NCBI GenBank assembly: GCA_020355325.1
Contig: CP070664.1
Coordinates: 1,057,802-1,090,300, forward strand
Source: Caldifarciminota bacterium
GTDB taxonomy: Bacteria > Hydrothermota > Tepidihabitantia > SM23-42
Direction: 5' to 3'
DNA length: 32,499 nucleotides
Shown piece after piece: positions 9,492 to 29,846 of this stretch (position 1 is the stretch's first letter; each line of letters opens with the position of its first letter). Under the pieces are notes generated by a model that was not told the origin of the DNA, did not search any database, and was given only the letters and a program-made list of their open reading frames with translations. The position numbers and the translations under genes are program-made.

Positions 9492-9506
9492 TGAGGCATC
9501 GTTTTT

Positions 9507-9617
9507 CGTTTTACGGCATAGCAGCCCGTATCGTCTTTCGTTGTTGGTCATTGATAGCTTGATTTTTTGTCGTATAACGATGCCGAATGACGAAACGGGC
9601 CGCCATACCCATGAACG
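9507..9617. repeat. Type A palindromic element, copy A1 (short loop)
   Basis: Two 34-nt arms at 9507-9540 and 9584-9617 are inverted repeats (25 of 34 positions complementary) around a 43-nt loop. The arm sequence (cgttttacggcatagcagcc...) is shared with copies at 12.7, 19.2 and 27.5 kb. The motif CGTATAACGATGCC directly precedes the right arm. It fills the gap between the mutase large-subunit and B12-subunit genes, where it could form a transcript hairpin. Confidence 0.8.
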
Positions 9618-9647
9618 AGTAACAGATTTTCATTTGAGGAGGAATCT

Positions 9648-11094: not shown

Positions 11095-12642
11095 ATGAAA
11101 AGCGAAGATAAAATAAAGCATCTTGAAGAACTGGAGCAGCAGGCATTCCTCGGCGGCGGTGAGAAACGGATTAAGGTTCAACACGATAAGGGTAAACTGA
11201 CTGCACGTGAGCGAATTGATTTATTGCTCGATGAAGGGTCATTTAGAGAAACGGATAAATTTGTGACGCATCGTTGTACTGACTTCGGTATGGAAAAAAC
11301 CAAAATTATGGGTGATGGTGTTGTAACCGGATATGGAAGAATAAACGGTAGGCCGGTCTGCATATTTTCCGAAGATTTTACCGTATTCGGGGGTTCACTA
11401 TCGAAGGCATATGCAGAGAAGATTGTTAAATTACAAGATATGGCACTTAAAATGGGTTGTCCAATCATTGGGCTCAAGGATTCGGGAGGTGCGCGGATTC
11501 AAGAGGGTGTTGATAGCCTAGCTGGCTATACGGATGTTTTCTTACGGAATGTTCTTTCGTCGGGCGTCGTGCCACAGATTTCTGCGATCATGGGTCCGTG
11601 TGCAGGAGGTGCTGTATATTCTCCAACAATGACTGATTTTGTAATTATGGTAAAGGGCTCTTATATGTTTTTGACCGGTCCCGACGTTGTCAAGGCAGCG
11701 ACACATGAAGACGTGACATTCGAACAACTCGGTGGCGCAATGGTTCATAATGAGAAATCTGGTGTAGCACATTTTGCAGTTGATACAGAAATAGAGTGCA
11801 TTGAATTAATTAAAAAACTGTTATCGTTTATCCCTCAGAATAATCTCGAAGATTCGCCGTCTACCGAACCAACCGATGATGTCAATCGTATGGACAAAGA
11901 ATTGAACAAAATAATTCCAGACAGCCCTCATAAACCCTATGATATGTGCGAAATAATAAATCACGTAATAGACCGTGATACATTCTTAGAAGTTCATAAA
12001 TACTATGCTACAAATTTGATTGTCGGTTTCGCGCGACTCAATGGTAAATCGGTTGGTGTTGTCGCTAATCAACCGGCCGTTCTCGCTGGTGTTTTAGATA
12101 TTGATTCTGCGATGAAAGGCGCTCGATTCGTCCGCTTTTGTGACTCCTTCAATATTCCAATTATTACATTTGTTGATGTCCCAGGATTTTTGCCTGGAAC
12201 TGCTCAGGAATGGGGCGGTGTCATTAAGAACGGCGCGAAACTTCTCTATGCATTTTGTGAATCAACGGTGCCTCGAATTACGGTAATTACGCGCAAGGCA
12301 TATGGTGGTGCATATTGTGTTATGAGTTCGAAACACACGCGTGCAGACATAAATTTTGCCTGGCCAAGCGCTGAGATTGCAGTCATGGGTCCTGACGGTG
12401 CAGTGAAAATTCTCTATCGAAAAGAAATTAAAGAGGCAAAGGAGCCGAAAGCACTGGAGAAGAAGTTGGTTGATGAATATATTGATAAATTTGCGAACCC
12501 ATTTGTGACAGCAAGTAAAGGGTATATTGACGCAATAATACGGCCATCGGAAACGAGACCAAGAATGATTGAGGCATTAGAACTCATTGACAGCAAACGC
12601 GATATAAACCCTGCGAGAAAGCATGGAAATATACCTTTATAA
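11095..12642 (+). CDS. Propionyl-CoA carboxylase-type carboxyltransferase
   Basis: The 515-residue protein is the carboxyltransferase (beta) subunit of a biotin-dependent acyl-CoA carboxylase. It has both crotonase-like halves: [16 protein letters not shown] in the N-half, and [20 protein letters not shown] with [16 protein letters not shown] in the C-half. These match propionyl-CoA carboxylase better than methylcrotonyl-CoA carboxylase. The usual Asp after GGAY (Asp422 in Streptomyces PccB, a known specificity position) is Cys408 here. With the biotin carboxylase and carrier that follow it would make methylmalonyl-CoA from propionyl-CoA. The membrane subunit needed for a sodium-pumping decarboxylase is not in the window. 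GGGGAGG lies 4 bases before ATG 11095. Confidence 0.88.
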
Positions 12643-12682
12643 AATTCCAAAATACCTAAACACCTAAATACCTAAAATAGAA
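12643..12682. repeat. Half of a type B low-complexity palindrome
   Basis: A run of degenerate TACCTAAA/CACCTAAA units directly after the carboxyltransferase stop, the same unit that forms the left arms at 16.7 and 29.1 kb. No matching right arm is present; the type A element follows instead, so it may have been truncated. Confidence 0.5.
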
Positions 12683-12703
12683 ATGTTTCAGTTATTGGTT
12701 TTT

Positions 12704-12862
12704 CGTTATACGACATCTCTCTCGACATCGAGTCTTCCCTCGAAACCGAGCCTCGGGACGAAGTGCGAGACGAGATGGAGGCCCGTATCGTTAGTCGTTG
12801 CTCGTCTTTTTGTGACGTATAACGATGCCCAAAAACGATACAGGCTGCCATGCCGAATAACA
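12704..12862. repeat. Type A palindromic element, copy A2, with nested insertion
   Basis: Left-arm sequence at 12704-12716 and 12777-12797 (together 34 nt) pairs imperfectly with the right arm at 12829-12862. The left arm is interrupted by a 60-nt insert (12717-12776) that is itself self-complementary at several levels, including CATCTC against GAGATG at its edges and CTCG-aaac-CGAG in the middle. The element ends 14 bases before the biotin carboxylase start. Confidence 0.75.
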
Positions 12863-12876
12863 TTTAACTAAAAACT

Positions 12877-14379
12877 ATGTTTAAGAAAATACTTGTTGCA
12901 AATCGTGGTGAGATTGCCGTGAGAGTACTCAGGGCGTGTAAAGAGATGAATATTTCTAGCGTGACGGTGTATTCTGATGCAGATAGAACGGCTCTCCACG
13001 TGCGTTATGCAGATGAAGTCTACTACTTAGGGCCGCCACCAGCTACAGAGAGCTATTTGAAGAGCGGTAAAATAATCGAAATTGCCAAACAATCAGGCGC
13101 CGAGGCCATTCATCCTGGTTATGGATTTTTGGCTGAAAATACAGAGTTTGCGAGAGCGTGCGAGGCAAATAATGTCGTTTTTATTGGTCCGGATTCAAAG
13201 GCAATTGAGCTCCTCGGTGATAAGATTGCCTCGAAAGAGACAATGAACAAAGCGGGTATTCCAACCATTCCTGGGAGTGACGGTGCCGTAAAACAAGAAA
13301 AAGAGGCCTTGGTTATTGCAGAACACATCGGTTTCCCAATTTTACTGAAAGCAGCAGGTGGTGGTGGTGGAAAAGGGATGCGCGTTGTGAGAGAAAAGAA
13401 AGAACTCGTGAGTCTGATGAAACAGGCAATGAGTGAGGCACAATCTGCTTTTGGAAACCCGATAATATTTATCGAAAAATTTCTCGAATCACCACGACAC
13501 ATTGAATTTCAAATTCTCGCAGACAATTATGGTAACGTAATCCATCTCTGCGAGCGAGAGTGTTCGGTCCAGCGTCGTCATCAAAAGCTCATCGAGGAGT
13601 CTCCGTCAGCGATCGTGACCCCTGAATTGCGTACAAAGATGGGTGAGGCGGCGGTAAAGGCAGTCAAGGCATCAAACTATACGAATGCCGGGACTGTTGA
13701 ATTTATGGTTGATAAGGATAGAAACTTTTATTTTCTCGAAATGAATACGCGTTTGCAGGTTGAACATCCTGTTACAGAATTAATCACTGGAGTTGATATT
13801 GTTAAAGAACAGTTAAAGATTGCCTCGGGCGAAAAGTTATCATTAGAACAGGAGAATATTAAAACATTTGGTTCGGCAATCGAATGCCGAATTTCGGCTG
13901 AAGATCCAGAAAATAATTTTGCACCCTCAACTGGTAAAATTGTTGAGCTCATTGAACCCGGTGGTCCTGGCGTCCGCGTCGAGAGTGGCATCTATGAAGG
14001 ATTTACAGTCCCAATATACTATGATCCTCTCATCGCAAAATTACTCGTTTGGGCGCCAACGCGAAGCGAAGCAATCACACGCATGGAGCGTGCACTACGA
14101 GAGTATCGAATAAGGGGGATTAAAACGTCGATACCTTTTCACCTGCTCGTCATGAATAATCCAATGTTCATTTCTGGTGACTATGATACGACGTTCATTG
14201 ATAAAGTCTTAGGTAGGATTGAATATAAAAAGAAGAATCATGAAATAGCCGCTCTTGCTGCTGCTATTGGGAAAATTCTGAAGGAAGAAAAAGCAGAGGT
14301 CTCGCATGCAAAAAAGGAAATAGGTATGAGTCCCTGGAAGCTGGCTGGACGCCCCATGAGATATCAAAAGGGTCGATGA
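12877..14379 (+). CDS. accC: Biotin carboxylase subunit, copy 1
   Basis: Biotin carboxylase carries out ATP- and bicarbonate-dependent carboxylation of carrier-bound biotin. The 500-residue product has the N-terminal ANRGEIAVRVLRAC, the ATP-grasp glycine loop KAAGGGGGKGMR, ERECSVQRRHQK, and the catalytic EMNTRLQVEHPVTE motif, ending in a standard C-terminal domain plus about 50 residues. It carries no biotin domain; the carrier is encoded separately at 14480. Position between the propionyl-type carboxyltransferase and that carrier assigns it to that complex. ATG 12877 has no recognisable ribosome site; the type A palindrome lies immediately upstream. Confidence 0.94.
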   Translation: MFKKILVANRGEIAVRVLRACKEMNISSVTVYSDADRTALHVRYADEVYYLGPPPATESYLKSGKIIEIAKQSGAEAIHPGYGFLAENTEFARACEANNVVFIGPDSKAIELLGDKIASKETMNKAGIPTIPGSDGAVKQEKEALVIAEHIGFPILLKAAGGGGGKGMRVVREKKELVSLMKQAMSEAQSAFGNPIIFIEKFLESPRHIEFQILADNYGNVIHLCERECSVQRRHQKLIEESPSAIVTPELRTKMGEAAVKAVKASNYTNAGTVEFMVDKDRNFYFLEMNTRLQVEHPVTELITGVDIVKEQLKIASGEKLSLEQENIKTFGSAIECRISAEDPENNFAPSTGKIVELIEPGGPGVRVESGIYEGFTVPIYYDPLIAKLLVWAPTRSEAITRMERALREYRIRGIKTSIPFHLLVMNNPMFISGDYDTTFIDKVLGRIEYKKKNHEIAALAAAIGKILKEEKAEVSHAKKEIGMSPWKLAGRPMRYQKGR

Positions 14380-15163: not shown

Positions 15164-16714
15164 ATGTTATTTTCTCCAGACGATTTAAAAGACTTTGTCT
15201 ACGAACGGGACCTCGGCAACCCGGGAGAATACCCTTTTACCCGCGGTGTCTATCCAACGATGTACAGTGGGCGCCTCTGGACAATGCGTCAGTACGCAGG
15301 ATATGGCACTGCCGAGGAGTCAAACAAACGCTACAAGTATCTCCTTGCACACGGGCAGACTGGTCTTTCCGTGGCCTTCGATTTACCAACGCAGATGGGT
15401 TACGATTCAGACCATCCTCTCGCCGAGGGTGAGGTCGGTAAAACTGGGGTGGCTATCGATACCTTGGAAGATATGGAAATATTGTTTCGTGATATTCCTC
15501 TGGATCGCGTGAGCACATCGATGACGATTAATGCTACTGCAGCAATTCTTTTAGCAATGTATATTGCAGTTGCTGAAAAACAAGGTACGTCACCAAAAAT
15601 TCTTTCGGGCACTGTTCAGAATGATGTTCTCAAGGAGTATATTGCCCGTGGCACGTATATCTACCCGCCGGCCGCTTCTACCAAGATTACTGTTGATATT
15701 ATTTCGTATTGTAGTAAAAACTTGCCAAAATGGAATACGATCTCTATTTCTGGTTATCATATCAGGGAGGCTGGAGCAACTGCTGCGCAGGAAGTTGCCT
15801 TTACTCTTGCAAACGCTATAGCGTACGTTCAGGCCGTGATTGAACGTGCCGGTTTTGAAGTTGATTCATTTGCACCCCGTCTTTCTTTCTTTTTTAATTG
15901 CCACAATAATTTTTTGGAAGAAATCGCAAAGTTCAGGGCAGCTCGAAGATGTTGGGCACGAGTCATGAAACGAAAGTTTCAAGCGAAGGACTCTCGATCA
16001 TGCATGTTAAGATTTCACACGCAGACAGCAGGTTCGACCCTTACTGCTCAAGAGCCCAACAACAATGCAATACGTGTGGCGCTTCAAGCCCTCGCTGCCG
16101 TTTTGGGAGGTACACAGAGTCTTCATACCAATTCTTTTGATGAAGCACTCGCCTTACCTACTGAGGAATCCGTGAAATTAGCTCTGCGTACGCAGCAAAT
16201 CATCGCCTATGAGAGTAGTGTTCCCCAGATAAGTGATCCATTGGGTGGTTCGTACTGTGTTGAATCACTGACCAATAAGTTAGAAGAAGAAATAAATAAT
16301 TATCTTGAGAAAATTGAAGAAATAGGCGGCGCATTTAATGCGATCGAAAATGGATATTTTCAAAAGGAGATACACCTGAGTGCCTATCAATATCAAAAGG
16401 ATGTGGAGAGCAGGGACATTAAGGTCGTCGGTGTTAATTCGTTTGTGACAGAAAAGGGAATAAAGAAATATTTAACTTTGAAAGTTTCACCAAAAGCAGT
16501 AGCACAACAATTGAAGAAGTTAAAAATAATTAAACTGAAGAGAAACAGCAAAAAGATTAAACGTGTATTACAGAATCTAAAGCAAGCTGCAATAAATAAT
16601 ATGAATGTAATGGAACCAATTCTAGATTGTGTGAGACAGTATGCTACTGTTGGAGAAATATCAGATACATTAAGAGGAGTTTATGGCGAATATAGAGAAA
16701 GACCCTTGTTTTAA
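15164..16714 (+). CDS. Methylmalonyl-CoA mutase large subunit (catalytic domain)
   Basis: The 516-residue TIM-barrel subunit carries RQY (Tyr44) and ARGTYIYPP (Arg162), 118 residues apart, corresponding to Tyr89/Arg207 that hold the substrate carboxylate in methylmalonyl-CoA mutase. The reaction is (R)-methylmalonyl-CoA to succinyl-CoA, following the carboxylase and the epimerase at 19718. It is about 29 residues shorter at the N-terminus than the paralogue at 7860: it begins at LFSPDDL, which aligns to residue 31 there. An in-frame stop at 15143 and a palindrome lie just upstream, so the missing segment is not encoded. It has no B12 domain and probably uses the subunit at 9648. Confidence 0.9.
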
Positions 16715-16793
16715 ATGCCTAAATACCTAGACACCTAAATACCTAAAAATTATATTTAGGAATTTAGGTATTTTGGACTTTTAGGTATTTATT
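16715..16793. repeat. Type B low-complexity palindrome, copy B2
   Basis: The left arm of repeated ATACCTAAA/CACCTAAA units pairs with a right arm of TTTAGGTATTTTGG-like units across a short AT loop. It starts at the mutase stop codon and ends just before the AGGAAGGAGG ribosome site of the dehydrogenase gene. Confidence 0.7.
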
Positions 16794-17899: not shown

Positions 17900-19191
17900 G
17901 CTGGTTTGATGACTACAAGAAGAAAAAGTGTGCGTTCGAAGAAGCAGTGTCAGTTGTGAAGAGCAAAGATCGCGTTTATGTCAGTGGTAATGCAGCAACA
18001 CCGTTTCAGCTCATGGAAGCACTTGCGCATCGTAAAGATGAATTACACGATGTTGAGATAGCGCATGTCTTACTATTTGGTGATGACCCTCTATCAAAAC
18101 CTGGAATGGAAGGACACTTTCGGCACAATTCATTATTCGTTGGGCCTGCCGACCGCGCAGCTGTAAACGAAGGCCGAGCCGATTACATCCCTGTTTTTTT
18201 GTATGAAATACCTAGTCTTTTCTACTCTGGACTGCTCCCCATTGATATTGCATTTATGCATCTGTCACCTCCCGATGAGCACGGCTTTATGAGTTTTGGA
18301 GTGGAATGTTTGGCGTCAAAGGCTGCAGCCGAGACTGCAAAGACTGTTGTTGCGCAGGTTAATGACAAGATGCCGAGAGCATTGGGTGACTCATTTATTC
18401 ATGTTTCTCGCGTTTCGAAGGTCGTTGAGATTTCTCAAGAACTGCCACAGTTGGAGCCGATTCCTTTTACAGAAGTTGAGGAAAAAATCGGAGCTCACAT
18501 TGCCGGCCTCGTTGAAGACGAATCGACACTTCAGTTGGGTATTGGTGGCATTCCGAACGCGGCGCTGAAGGCGATGTTTGATAAGAAAGATCTCGGTATT
18601 CACACCGAGATGGTGTCGGATAGTATTATTGAGGCAATCGAAGCGGGTGTTATAACAGGAGCAAAAAAGACACTGCATCCTTACAAAGTGATAGCGACCT
18701 TCTTTCTTGGTTCATCAAAGTTATATGATTTTATTGACAATAATCCAGTCTTCGAGACTCACCCAACCGAATATACCAATCATCCCTTTATCATTCGGCA
18801 GAATGAAAAAATGATTGCGATAAATTCCGCTATTGAAGTAGATTTGACCGGCCAGGTATGCTCAGATTCTATCGGCACGAGAATTTACTCAGGATTTGGT
18901 GGACAAGTTGACTTCATTCGTGGTGCAGCTCAGTCGAAAGGTGGTAAGCCGATTATCGCACTTCCCGCGACCGCGAAGGATGGAAAAATTTCGAAAATTG
19001 TTCCGACGCTCCAAGTCGGTGCTGGTGTGGTTACGACACGGGCCGATGTTCACTACATCGTGACAGAATACGGTGTCGCCTATCTCCATGGAAAGAACTT
19101 GCGTCAGCGAGCCGAAGCCCTCATTAGTATCGCTCACCCAGATTTTCGACCCGAGCTTGAAGAGGCAGCGAAGAAGAGAAGGTTACTATAG
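17896..19191 (+). CDS. Acetyl-CoA hydrolase/transferase family CoA-transferase
   Basis: The 431-residue product is a single-chain class I CoA-transferase of the acetyl-CoA hydrolase/4-hydroxybutyrate CoA-transferase group. It has the GIGGIPNAAL loop, HTEMVSD with catalytic Glu238, the YSGFGGQVDFIRGA motif, and a VTEYGVAYLHGKNLRQRA block near the end. Members exchange CoA between acetate and succinate, butyrate, propionate or related acids. In this cluster, recovery of energy from succinyl-CoA or release of short-chain acids are reasonable roles; the actual acid pair is not readable. Its start overlaps the preceding stop (ATGA), indicating coupling. Confidence 0.9.
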   Translation: MSWFDDYKKKKCAFEEAVSVVKSKDRVYVSGNAATPFQLMEALAHRKDELHDVEIAHVLLFGDDPLSKPGMEGHFRHNSLFVGPADRAAVNEGRADYIPVFLYEIPSLFYSGLLPIDIAFMHLSPPDEHGFMSFGVECLASKAAAETAKTVVAQVNDKMPRALGDSFIHVSRVSKVVEISQELPQLEPIPFTEVEEKIGAHIAGLVEDESTLQLGIGGIPNAALKAMFDKKDLGIHTEMVSDSIIEAIEAGVITGAKKTLHPYKVIATFFLGSSKLYDFIDNNPVFETHPTEYTNHPFIIRQNEKMIAINSAIEVDLTGQVCSDSIGTRIYSGFGGQVDFIRGAAQSKGGKPIIALPATAKDGKISKIVPTLQVGAGVVTTRADVHYIVTEYGVAYLHGKNLRQRAEALISIAHPDFRPELEEAAKKRRLL

Positions 19192-19203
19192 TTGATAGTT
19201 TTT

Positions 19204-19699
19204 CGTTATACGGCGTGGCAGCCTGTATCGTCATTCGTTTGACGGCATCGTAAATTAGGGGAAAAACAATAAAAAAAATTATAAAGAGTTTTAAGGACTT
19301 AGAAGTTTATCAAAATACTTATAAAGCTTCTATTGTTATCGCTACAAGCATATTACCAAAATTACCTGAGCACGAAAAATTCGATTTACATAATCAATTA
19401 GGTAAGTCTTCTAAGGCAATACCAAGATTAATTGCTGAAGGATTTGCAAAAAAACATCAAAAGTTTGGATTTCAGAAATACCTGGATGATGCTATGGGTG
19501 AATGTAATGAGATCATAGTTAGTCTTGAGCACGTCAAGGATATATATAAAATCGAAGTTGATTTGTGTAAGGAATTAGTCTACACATATGATAAGTCTGC
19601 ACGTCAACTTTTCAAGCTAGCTGAGGCTTGGGATTCGTTTAAAAACAGGAGAAGAAAAACGAAGCCGATGAACGATACGGGCCGCGATGCCGTATAACG
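19204..19699. mobile_element. Type A palindromic element carrying an IVP gene in its loop
   Basis: Arms at 19204-19237 and 19666-19699, 34 nt each, are inverted repeats with 27 of 34 positions complementary, and belong to the same family as those at 9.5, 12.7 and 27.5 kb. Here the loop is 428 nt and holds a four-helix-bundle (S23/IVP) gene. The arrangement recalls 23S rRNA intervening sequences, where a stem encloses an IVP ORF, but here it sits between metabolic genes. The element may be mobile; no transposase is visible and target duplications were not identified. Confidence 0.7.
19269..19697 (+). CDS. Four-helix-bundle protein of the S23/IVP (23S rRNA intervening sequence) family
   Basis: The frame encodes about 142 residues with the family start KKIIKSFKDLEVYQNTYK, followed by helices including LPEHEKFDLHNQLGKSSKAI, an IAEGFAKKH segment and KYLDDAMGECNEI. 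This matches the S23/IVP four-helix bundle family, also related to the Avd proteins of diversity-generating retroelements. There is no ATG at the family start: ATA at 19269, 5 bases after AGGGGAA, takes its place, and the in-frame stop TAA at 19251 bars anything longer. The first ATG (19494) would remove half the protein. The last ten codons lie inside the right arm of the palindrome. It could be expressed from a rare AUA start or be silenced. Confidence 0.7.
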   Translation: MKKIIKSFKDLEVYQNTYKASIVIATSILPKLPEHEKFDLHNQLGKSSKAIPRLIAEGFAKKHQKFGFQKYLDDAMGECNEIIVSLEHVKDIYKIEVDLCKELVYTYDKSARQLFKLAEAWDSFKNRRRKTKPMNDTGRDAV

Positions 19700-19717
19700 T
19701 TTGACGATTTTTTGTCT

Positions 19718-20110
19718 ATGAAATTACAGCATATCGGCATAGCAGTGAAAAACATTAAAGAGCGTCTGAAGATTTGGCGAGACGTGCTTGGACTTCATTT
19801 TGAGATGATTGAGGATGTGCCACAGCAAAAGGTGAGGGTGGCGGTATTGGACATCGGTGGGTTAAAGATCGAGTTGCTCGAGGCGCTCGAGGAAGGGAGT
19901 ACGATCGCTACATTTATAGAAAAGAAGGGCGAAGGTCTGCACCATCTCTGTCTCGAAGTTGAAGATATTGAGGATATGCTGTTAAAACTGAAACAGCAAG
20001 GTGTGAAACTTATCGATGAAGTTCCGAGAGAGGGTGCTTCAGGCAAAAAGATTGCCTTTATCCATCCGCGGGATATGGGTGGTGTATTGATTGAGCTGAC
20101 TCAGAAGTAA
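19718..20110 (+). CDS. mce: Methylmalonyl-CoA epimerase
   Basis: The 130-residue product from ATG 19718 is a VOC-fold protein with the methylmalonyl-CoA epimerase pattern: HIGIAV at the start (His5), GEGLHHLCLEV in the middle (His75/76) and a terminal GVLIELTQK (Glu126) as metal ligands, plus FIHPRDMGG. It interconverts (S)- and (R)-methylmalonyl-CoA between the carboxylase and the mutase. The TTG two codons earlier is unlikely to be the start. No ribosome site is visible; the IVP-bearing palindrome ends 18 bases upstream. Confidence 0.92.
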   Translation: MKLQHIGIAVKNIKERLKIWRDVLGLHFEMIEDVPQQKVRVAVLDIGGLKIELLEALEEGSTIATFIEKKGEGLHHLCLEVEDIEDMLLKLKQQGVKLIDEVPREGASGKKIAFIHPRDMGGVLIELTQK

Positions 20111-24395: not shown

Positions 24396-24473
24396 AAGTA
24401 GATAGTAGAAGGTAGCTAGTAGACAGTGAAAAATTCAATTTACTAACTACTGCCTACTTACTACTAACTACTC
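24396..24473. repeat. Type D low-complexity palindrome
   Basis: The left arm of TAGTAG/GGTAG units (gtagatagtagaaggtag) faces a right arm of CTACTAACTACTG units with a short A/T loop between. It fills the gap between the DUF35 gene and the carboxyltransferase and ends shortly before the AAAGGAG ribosome site. Confidence 0.7.
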
Positions 24474-24485
24474 TCAAAGGAGACT

Positions 24486-26093: not shown

Positions 26094-26141
26094 ATTCCTA
26101 AAATTTTAGGTAATTTAGGCATTTTGGACTTTTAGGTATTT
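26094..26141. repeat. Type B low-complexity palindrome, shortened copy B3
   Basis: CCTAAAATTTTAGG, a perfect small palindrome, is followed by TTTAGGCATTTTGG and TTTAGGTATTTG units like the right arm of copy B2. The left arm is mostly missing. It directly precedes the AAAGGAGG ribosome site of the cupin gene. Confidence 0.55.
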
Positions 26142-26161
26142 GCCTTTGGAAAGGAGGTTGA

Positions 26162-26488: not shown

Positions 26489-26600
26489 TGTTAAATGCCA
26501 CAATCCAAATGTCAAATCAGTGTCAAAGTTCAAATATCAAATTTGGCATTGGTTATTTGGCATTCAATTGGACTTTGTAATTTGACATTTGGTATTGAAC
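26489..26600. repeat. Type C low-complexity palindrome, copy C2
   Basis: Left-half units AATCCAAATGTCAAATC and TTCAAATATCAAA are complementary to right-half TTTGGCATTGGTTATTTGG and AATTTGACATTTGG. It lies wholly in the gap before the hydratase gene. Confidence 0.65.
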
Positions 26601-27420: not shown

Positions 27421-27467
27421 GAGGAGATGTACATCGATCATTTTATGATATTCTGTTATTCGTTGAT

Positions 27468-27571
27468 CGTTATACGGCGGTGCCGTCCGTATCGTTTTTC
27501 GTTTGTGGTTTATTGTTTTTTAGCCATATGACGATGCCCTACAACGATACTGGCCGCAATGTCCAATAACG
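27468..27571. repeat. Type A palindromic element, copy A5-like (short loop)
   Basis: Arms at 27468-27501 and 27538-27571, each 34 nt, complementary at 23 of 34 positions around a 36-nt loop. The motif CATATGACGATGCC precedes the right arm, as CGTATAACGATGCC does in the 9.5 and 12.7 kb copies. It ends 15 bases before the second biotin carboxylase, the same layout as the copy before the first one. Confidence 0.8.
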
Positions 27572-27586
27572 TGTAACAATGCTACT

Positions 27587-29092
27587 ATGTTTAAAAAAAT
27601 CTTAATCGCTAATCGCGGAGAGATCGCCGTACGTGTTGCTCGTGCCTGCCGCGAGCTCGGTGTGGCGACGGTTGGTGTTTATTCGACCACAGACAAGAGC
27701 GCGTATCATCTCCGTTTTATGGATGATGCAGTCTGGATTGGCGATTCGCCGCCGCAGGCGAGTTATTTGAATATTGAGAAAATCATTGATGTGACAAAAA
27801 AATCAGGTGCAGAAGCAATTCATCCTGGCTATGGATTTTTAGCAGAAAACGCACAGTTTGCTCGTGCGTGCGAGGATGCTGGAGTTGTTTTCATTGGTCC
27901 GAATTCTAAGGCGCTCGCCTTAGTTGGTGATAAGGTAGCGTCGCGTACTACAGTTAAGGCAATTGGTGTTCCGATTATTCCTGGAATGGAAGGTCTCACT
28001 GAGGAGATGAGTATATTTAAAAATATGGCGAAGGAGGTTGGCTATCCGGTAATCGTGAAGGCTTCGTTGGGAGGCGGAGGTAAGGGCATGAGAATAGTAT
28101 ACAACGACGAAGAACTGGAATCTTGCGTCGCAGCCGGCAGGAGAGAGGCGAAGAGTGCCTTTGGTGATGATTCGGTATATCTTGAGAAGTATGTAGATAG
28201 ACCACGGCACGTAGAATTTCAGGTCTTGCGTGATCATCAGGGTAATGTCGTACATTTGTTCGAACGCGAGTGTTCAATTCAACGGCGTCATCAAAAAATC
28301 ATTGAAGAAACTCCGTCGCAAGCCTTGGATGATAAACTACGTGCTAAAATGGGTGAGGCTGCAAAAAAGGTGATCGAAGCGGCTGATTACACGAATGCAG
28401 GAACAGTGGAATTTCTACTCGATGAGAATAAAAATTTCTATTTTCTTGAGGTCAATGCGCGTGTCCAAGTTGAGCATCCAATAACGGAGATGGTAACGGG
28501 AGTGGACTTAGTGCGTCATCAGATTATGATAGCCGCAGGTGAACGAATAACATTGAAGCAGGATGAGGTGTCACAACATGGCCATGCGATAGAGTCGAGA
28601 ATATATGCAGAGGATCCAGAGAATAATTTTTTGCCGTCGCCAGGCAAAATTTTGACCCTTGTCGAACCGAGTGGACCCGGCATCAGAGTAGATTCGGGTA
28701 TATATCAAGGTTGCGATGTGCCGCCTCAGTATGATCCAATACTCTCAAAGGTGATTGTATGGGCAGAAACGAGAAGTATGTCAATTTCCCGCATGTCACA
28801 TGCGTTACAACATTATATCATTTTAGGAATAAGAAACAATATTGGTTTTTTAAAACGCATTATGGATACACAAAAATTTATTGAGGGTAATTATCATACT
28901 CACTTTCTCGACGAAAACGAAGCCGATCTCATTTCAAAACACGATGATATTGGCATCGCATTAATTGCTGCGACGTTCATCGCTTCAGAAAAGAAGAGGG
29001 TATATGACGCCAGAGCTGGCACACGGGCCGAACTACAAAAAAGTATGACCCCCTGGCGGGAGCTTGGTCACTGGGAAATATGCGGACATTAA
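27587..29092 (+). CDS. accC: Biotin carboxylase subunit, copy 2
   Basis: The 501-residue product has the same architecture as the copy at 12877: ANRGEIAVRVARAC, the ATP-grasp loop KASLGGGGKGMR, ERECSIQRRHQK and EVNARVQVEHPITE. The two differ over much of their length, so the duplication is old. It has no biotin domain and is followed by its own carrier gene at 29209. Neighbours assign it to the methylcrotonyl-type carboxylase. No ribosome site precedes ATG 27587; the type A palindrome lies just upstream. Confidence 0.94.
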   Translation: MFKKILIANRGEIAVRVARACRELGVATVGVYSTTDKSAYHLRFMDDAVWIGDSPPQASYLNIEKIIDVTKKSGAEAIHPGYGFLAENAQFARACEDAGVVFIGPNSKALALVGDKVASRTTVKAIGVPIIPGMEGLTEEMSIFKNMAKEVGYPVIVKASLGGGGKGMRIVYNDEELESCVAAGRREAKSAFGDDSVYLEKYVDRPRHVEFQVLRDHQGNVVHLFERECSIQRRHQKIIEETPSQALDDKLRAKMGEAAKKVIEAADYTNAGTVEFLLDENKNFYFLEVNARVQVEHPITEMVTGVDLVRHQIMIAAGERITLKQDEVSQHGHAIESRIYAEDPENNFLPSPGKILTLVEPSGPGIRVDSGIYQGCDVPPQYDPILSKVIVWAETRSMSISRMSHALQHYIILGIRNNIGFLKRIMDTQKFIEGNYHTHFLDENEADLISKHDDIGIALIAATFIASEKKRVYDARAGTRAELQKSMTPWRELGHWEICGH

Positions 29093-29204
29093 AAAATGCC
29101 TAAACACCTAAACACCTACATACCTAAAATTTCTAATGATACTCATACTGCGGCTACGTTCGGTTTTTGTATTTCTAGGCATTTTAGAGTTTTTTGTGTT
29201 TAGT
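29093..29204. repeat. Type B low-complexity palindrome, copy B4
   Basis: Left-arm CCTAAACACCTAAACACC units face right-arm TTTCTAGGCATTTTAGAG and TTTTTTGTGTTTAG. The loop, which includes actgcggctacgttcgg, is different from copy B2. It reaches to within 5 bases of the carrier-protein start. Confidence 0.6.
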
Positions 29205-29706: not shown

Positions 29707-29846
29707 AAACCGAAGCACTAAGTACGAAATTCTAAACAAATTCGAAATTCAAATGACCGAAATTCCAAAATATTGTTGATATAATTTGAATTTAGAAATT
29801 TGATATTGTTTAGTATTTAGATATTAGAATTTAGGATTTAAAAAAC
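29707..29846. repeat. Type C low-complexity palindrome, copy C3
   Basis: The left half (CGAAGCACTAAGTACGAAAT and AAATTCGAAATTCAAATG units) faces the right half (TTTGAATTTAGAAATTTGAT and GTTTAGTATTTAGATATT). It occupies the whole gap between the carrier and flavoprotein genes. I recall similar CCGAAGCAC...AAATTC palindromes in other uncultured bacteria, which is memory, not a search. Confidence 0.65.

Follow-up and report, generated by a model that had tools for sequence, protein, structure and literature searches.

The S23/IVP gene in the analysed stretch, a window of 32,499 nucleotides (C1:1057802-1090300), is probably part of one copy of a mobile, selfish hairpin element resembling the intervening sequences (IVS) of 23S rRNA, in which the protein and its flanking arms travel together and which also exists as gene-less, MITE-like copies. 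In such an element, two inverted arms composed of short degenerate words would form the hairpin, and the S23/IVP gene would sit at its apex. The genome is a single contig of 2.85 Mb, with a completeness of 92%, and genome sampling used 400 kb, spaced evenly.

The IVP element of the window

The element extends over positions 19198-19707, where the S23/IVP frame, in a loop of 433 nt, is flanked by two inverted arms; it lies between two metabolic genes, those for an acetyl-CoA hydrolase and an epimerase. The left arm (19198..19253, forward strand) comprises an outer word-built arm (19204-19231) with the core GCCTGTATCGT, followed by an inner repeat ending in CGTTTGACGGCATCGT. The right arm (19656..19707, forward strand) comprises the inner AACGAAGCCGATGAACG and the outer ACGATACGGGCCGCGATGCCGTATAACG (19672-19699), and doubles as the code for the C-terminal tail of the IVP, the final codons and stop of which fall within it. 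The best gap-free alignment of the arms at 19204 covers 28 nt with 86% complementarity, and the arms extend to 31/32 nt when one gap is allowed. The genome-wide arm search that the preliminary description of this DNA had proposed gave 20 forward and 19 reverse matches to the 28-nt pattern with up to 3 mismatches. The reversed control pattern had 0 matches, as opposed to 39 for the real one, and the repetition of the arms is therefore not a matter of chance.

The terminal inverted repeats that give the 23S rRNA IVS their long stem are present in the element, and an RNA of 526 nt has a folding energy of -135.2 kcal/mol (z = -4.3 relative to shuffles). Rfam covariance models had 0 matches in the window at E<=1. 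When compared with the empty junctions of relatives, CTAT at 19188..19191 (4 bp, forward strand) and CTAT at 19716..19719 (forward strand, overlapping the beginning of the following gene) emerge as candidate left and right copies of a target duplication. The occurrence of CTAT at both ends here, with ATGA or TATGA in some relatives, is suggestive, and CTAT may represent such a duplication.

The frame itself (19254..19697, forward strand; 147 codons plus a TAA stop) is a true PF05635 member (58.9 bits, cut-off 33.8). Thus, the claim of an S23/IVP gene in the loop stands with respect to the family, but needs amending with respect to the gene: the frame ends inside the right arm and has no canonical start codon, with no ATG, GTG or TTG and with ATT AGG at 19254-19259, where the relative L138 has ATG. 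Because the start codon has been lost, the window copy is probably not expressed, or barely so, or else is started from a rare codon. Elsewhere the protein generally appears to be maintained by purifying selection, as indicated by the low dN/dS of most close IVP pairs (mostly 0.07-0.25, with two pairs at 0.44-0.51).

An alignment-based model of the IVP (22 homologues, pLDDT 86; single-sequence prediction was poor) matches the S23 structures 2GSC and 2RLD as well as the Avd structure 4DWL (best E 2.8e-3), with a TMt of 0.85 against Avd. This resemblance, together with the published likening of PF05635 to Avd (PMC10053308), would suit a retro-element akin to the diversity-generating retroelements, in which the IVP would partner, as Avd does, a reverse transcriptase that makes copies of the hairpin RNA. 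Such an origin is very improbable, given that RVT_1 is missing from the element's own, 92% complete genome, that it occurs in only 3 of 41 genomes as against 32 of 41 for the IVPs, and that the gene-less hairpins display no sense-strand excess of G.T.

Most IVP genes lie between inverted arms built of short words

The genome codes for 13 IVP genes. None of the other 12 has the window arms, and most are flanked by inverted arms built from different words, which include ACTAGGTACT, CCTAAATG, GGAAGTAGGA, CAGGGCATAG, GGCAATTGAG and more. The preliminary description, which saw the IVP as cargo of this one palindrome family and held that IVP genes without these arms would count against it, was thus too narrow: such genes do exist as far as these particular arms are concerned, and what has been strengthened is a general rule of inverted, word-built arms. 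We evaluated this rule on 131 distinct IVP genes, namely the relatives and 27 loci from other organisms, using 305 ordinary small ORFs as the control. At a score of at least 18, the two flanks match as inverted arms in 59% of the IVP genes compared to 0 of the 305 control genes; at a score of at least 15, they match in 79% compared to 8.7% of mispaired flanks, with matching arms being absent around about a fifth of the IVP genes. The arm words recur every 7-8 nt (self-match of 0.36 and 0.33, versus 0.285 in shuffled sequence), which was not found in coding or outer-flank controls.

The same layout recurs in named bacteria: on their plasmids, which come mainly from Cyanobacteriota but also from Azospirillum and Gemmatirosa, the arms match at 17 of 21 IVP genes (mispaired flanks, 17%), and many of these arms consist of heptamers, for example AGCAGGGG, AGGTGAC, GGGTGTA and GACGGAT. 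On cyanobacterial plasmids, three IVP genes (L221, L223, L229) are situated within CRISPR loci, in one case beside cas2, in another flanked by cas6 and cas4, and in the third flanked by cas10 and a Cmr3 gene, and five more (L214, L216, L217, L218, L225) adjoin tyrosine recombinase/integrase genes. A search for IVP relatives in phages recovered none.

The protein and its arms as a travelling unit

The 27 loci from other phyla, which encode close relatives of the window IVP, were picked by protein similarity to P0001 and not by their arms, and nearly all of them feature the arm core GCCCGTATCG or a near variant. Their hosts comprise Stahlbacteria, several Patescibacteria, Cloacimonadota, Bacteroidota, Omnitrophota, Desulfobacteraceae and others, a range that mis-binning could inflate since the loci come mostly from metagenome bins. 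In a tree of the 131 IVPs, the core GCCCGTATCG is found in both arms (at most 2 mismatches) in 27 of the 39 members of one clade, which has a support of 100/100 and spans several phyla, and in 0 of the 92 members outside it. Among non-syntenic sites, arm similarity climbs from 0.17 for IVPs less than 50% identical, which equals the reversed-arm control (0.17), to 0.24 at 50-65% and 0.43 above 65% identity; thus, the arms follow the protein lineage, yet evolve faster than it. Judged from these comparisons of sequence, the IVP and its arms demonstrably move as one unit among distant bacteria, into different intergenic sites.

Insertion sites and mobility

The junction that houses the window element has contrasting states among the relatives. 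First, G001, G010 and G025 show an overlap of the two genes, and only 4-24 nt separate them in G002, G005, G008, G013 and G016; the empty sites that the preliminary description had suggested looking for are thus found, exactly or almost so, in these 8 genomes. Second, the junction is occupied in G009 and G023 by an IVP from another lineage, which has arms of another kind. Third, gene-less relics bearing the window core are found in G003, G004 and G018. At three more junctions, one of them between tRNA genes, sibling species have IVPs that are only 24-34% identical. On this comparative evidence, the same operon junctions have clearly been reused by unrelated IVP members, and empty sites exist. 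At the acylphosphatase-apt junction, an IVP element is present in G018, and six siblings show no more than short remnants of words, or little at all, a pattern that gene loss fits as well as gain. No element copy was caught in motion among the genomes compared. The only near-identical pair, L028/L034, was considered as a case of transposition and rejected, both copies being in a 407-bp segmental duplication.

These junctions also bear on a quite unlikely alternative, under which the hairpins are currently immobile: slippage and template switching at hairpins would have formed the word arrays in situ, and these would regulate operon mRNA, with the IVP as a resident RNA-binding factor co-located with its target. 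The location of the hairpins near gene ends and between co-directional genes, the fast drift of the words and the repeated reuse of tRNA-operon and metabolic junctions are all in keeping with it, but it is at odds with the empty junctions, the presence of unrelated IVPs at a single junction, and the spread of gene plus arms across phyla into unrelated sites.

As the preliminary description had stated, no transposase is recognizable inside the window element, and we identified no moving enzyme. A MITE parent would carry a transposase sharing its ends; the parent form here carries the IVP only. It is nevertheless conceivable, if unlikely, that these are ordinary REP/MITE hairpins moved by the resident Y1 (RAYT-like) transposases, with the IVP an occasional passenger in the loop. 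In favor of this, Y1 and IVP counts correlate across 41 genomes (rho 0.78; size-corrected 0.64), as they do within the family (rho 0.60; corrected 0.43). However, the flanks of five Y1 genes read in the genome have other ends or none, and the window arms in no case; two of them have GGGGTCA ends, like published TIR-associated Y1 genes; G009 has 4 IVPs and zero Y1; and the arms track the IVP lineage, which is unexpected for a passenger. Three Y1 transposase genes (L044, L045, L047) have their own inverted ends, GGGGTCAGGCCTGACA, GGGGTCAAATCTCG and CACTCCCGAGGTGAATAG, unrelated to the IVP arms.

Gene-less hairpins

The four arm pairs of one family that had been reported for the window are indeed present. 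In addition to the IVP element, they comprise gene-less copies at 9498..9627 (loop 43), 12702..12868 (inner loop 41) and 27458..27580 (loop 46), all the hairpin features of the window being given without strand. The 34-nt arms and loops of 31-43 and 428 nt given previously agree, within the choice of alignment, with our arm lengths of 28 nt (gap-free) or 31/32 nt (gapped) and loops of 41-46 and 433 nt. The interpretation of the short copies as non-autonomous forms is likewise upheld, with about 25 gene-less copies of the window arm family in the genome, having loops mostly of 41-59 nt.

We scored the window hairpins by the match of their arms to those of IVP elements versus a reversed control. 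The copy at 9498..9627 has the window element as its best match (31 vs. 14), and that at 27458..27580 scores 26 vs. 14. Other word families are represented by gene-less hairpins at 16713..16790 (word CCTAAATA, 27 vs. 16; IVP-bearing forms L009, L118, L129), 24397..24475 (GTAGACAGTA, 20 vs. 16.5; IVP-bearing form L166), 26489..26600 (CAAATGTCAAAT, a weak 17.5 vs. 14; IVP-bearing form L126), 29078..29201 (CCTAAACA, 19 vs. 13) and 29707..29830 (CGAAATTC, 28 vs. 18; IVP-bearing form L123). A single arm with the word CCTAAATA is found at 12640..12685 (28.5 vs. 16), and an arm with the word TTTAGGTATT, the CCTAAATA dialect on the other strand, at 26103..26145 (28.5 vs. 16). Overall, 12 arms were tested, two of them from the family of the window element itself; nine score higher against an IVP-element arm than their reversed controls do, two of the nine by only 3.5. 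Most of the other hairpins in the window thereby have counterparts among the arms of IVP elements from relatives.

In the copy at 12702..12868, a nested repeat of ~60 nt (~12713-12774), which begins CATCTCTCTCGACATC, interrupts the left arm. Near-identical pieces of this repeat, 37-50 nt long, are common to L027, L030, L035, L200 and L203, and the relic of the relative G003 contains a similar one. Hairpins of one arm family (12702-12880 and 27458-27590) precede both paralogous biotin carboxylase genes, which may reflect either joint duplication or repeated targeting. Away from the hairpins, the window encodes an AhpD-like small protein in tandem copies (2178-2456 and 2611-2883); an in-frame TGA within a CxxU motif (GCSSU / GCTSU) makes it a candidate selenoprotein, and the first copy contains an in-frame TAG as well.

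Across the genome, the gene-less hairpins are located near gene ends, between co-directional genes, and have the profile of MITEs, that is, many short intergenic inverted-repeat copies with no gene. Consensus folding of 12 such copies was poor, with misaligned inner arms. Their mismatches (G.T 104 vs. A.C 121) lend no support to selection on the stem at the RNA level, while those of the IVP-bearing hairpins (G.T 189 vs. A.C 136) weakly favor it. Since one junction retains GGCAATT-type words without the gene in most of six siblings, the gene-less hairpins could be remnants left in place instead of transposed copies.

A proposed mechanism and its implications

For the IVS-like mobile element that we favor, we propose that the basic four-helix IVP, a pentamer in a solved relative, would bind the words of its own arms, as a consequence of which each lineage would keep its own word. 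The IVP would thereby act as the recognition factor, and a host enzyme would cut and join. This proposal of arm binding and enzyme recruitment draws on the link between lineage and word, on the fold and on the positive charge (net charge +9 for P0001; clade mean +4.7). Insertion between co-transcribed genes might be tolerated if the arm stem can be excised from the transcript, as by RNase III on the 23S IVS.

More tentatively, and with somewhat less than even confidence, we raise the prospect of a large mobile class in which the only gene is that for the IVP, a protein for which no catalytic domain is known, and in which the IVP recognizes lineage-specific arm words of 7-8 nt; the 23S IVS and many heptamer hairpins, among them the cyanobacterial STRRs and the GGGAATC pairs of Xanthomonas, would belong to this class or be remnants of it. 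If true, the rRNA intervening sequences would be a special case within a much larger family of mobile hairpins, and this one-family view leads to a direct question: does each IVP protein bind its own arm words? A literature search that included few subscription journals retrieved no paper tying IVP genes to such arms, and the literature found on the four-helix-bundle gene contained no description of these elements.

Comparison with known systems

The closest counterpart is the 23S IVS of Coxiella burnetii, in which a stem and tandem GACAGAT heptamers accompany the S23p ORF and which is excised by RNase III; where 23S IVS and S23/IVP proteins come from, and what they do, is described as unclear (PMC4990558). 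Both have one S23/IVP ORF, here a PF05635 member with the 2GSC/2RLD fold, in the loop of a ~30-bp stem, at a length of ~430 nt, and in both short tandem repeats adjoin the ORF (GACAGAT in Coxiella). The IVS layout in an intergenic setting that the preliminary description had recognized is thus supported. In contrast to the IVS, the window element lies between protein genes, has many copies, gene-less derivatives and many arm words, and belongs with IVPs that are mostly under purifying selection, whereas the Coxiella ORF is decaying. Given its location outside rRNA, we classify the element as IVS-like and not as an IVS. The shared layout of gene and stem might also be taken to mean that the IVP genes are 23S IVS that strayed to intergenic sites through recombination with rRNA genes. 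We find this hardly credible: inspection of the 23S genes of this genome, which the preliminary description had suggested, showed no IVP gene and no arm core; intergenic sites harbor many lineages and many arm words; and a move in the opposite direction is the simpler assumption. In L191, the main 23S rRNA match is only 2154 nt long, yet it covers all 2925 positions of the model and contains no N.

With MITEs, REPs and REPtrons (GTAG REPs with RAYT), the hairpins share the form of short intergenic palindromes in many, non-autonomous copies. They differ from these systems in having arms built from 7-8 nt words, in that no RAYT has these ends, none of the five Y1 genes read being flanked by the same repeats, and in that the linked protein is the IVP, which lacks a known catalytic domain. 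Avd of the diversity-generating retroelements is likewise a four-helix bundle (4DWL), but the reverse transcriptase of those systems is missing from this genome.

The cyanobacterial STRRs and the arrays of Xanthomonas and Nostoc are intergenic heptamer arrays, often in inverted pairs, and in Xanthomonas they closely follow the upstream ORF (PMC4692102, PMC2670836); these hairpins have no known function or mobile-element link (PMC4692102). For the Xanthomonas GGGAATC pairs, a link to the IVP is a prediction, and one large record examined had no IVP gene. The arrays resemble the IVP arms, but a link to S23/IVP is absent from both of these accounts (PMC4692102, PMC2670836), whereas the IVP genes of cyanobacterial plasmids are found here between just such heptamer arms.
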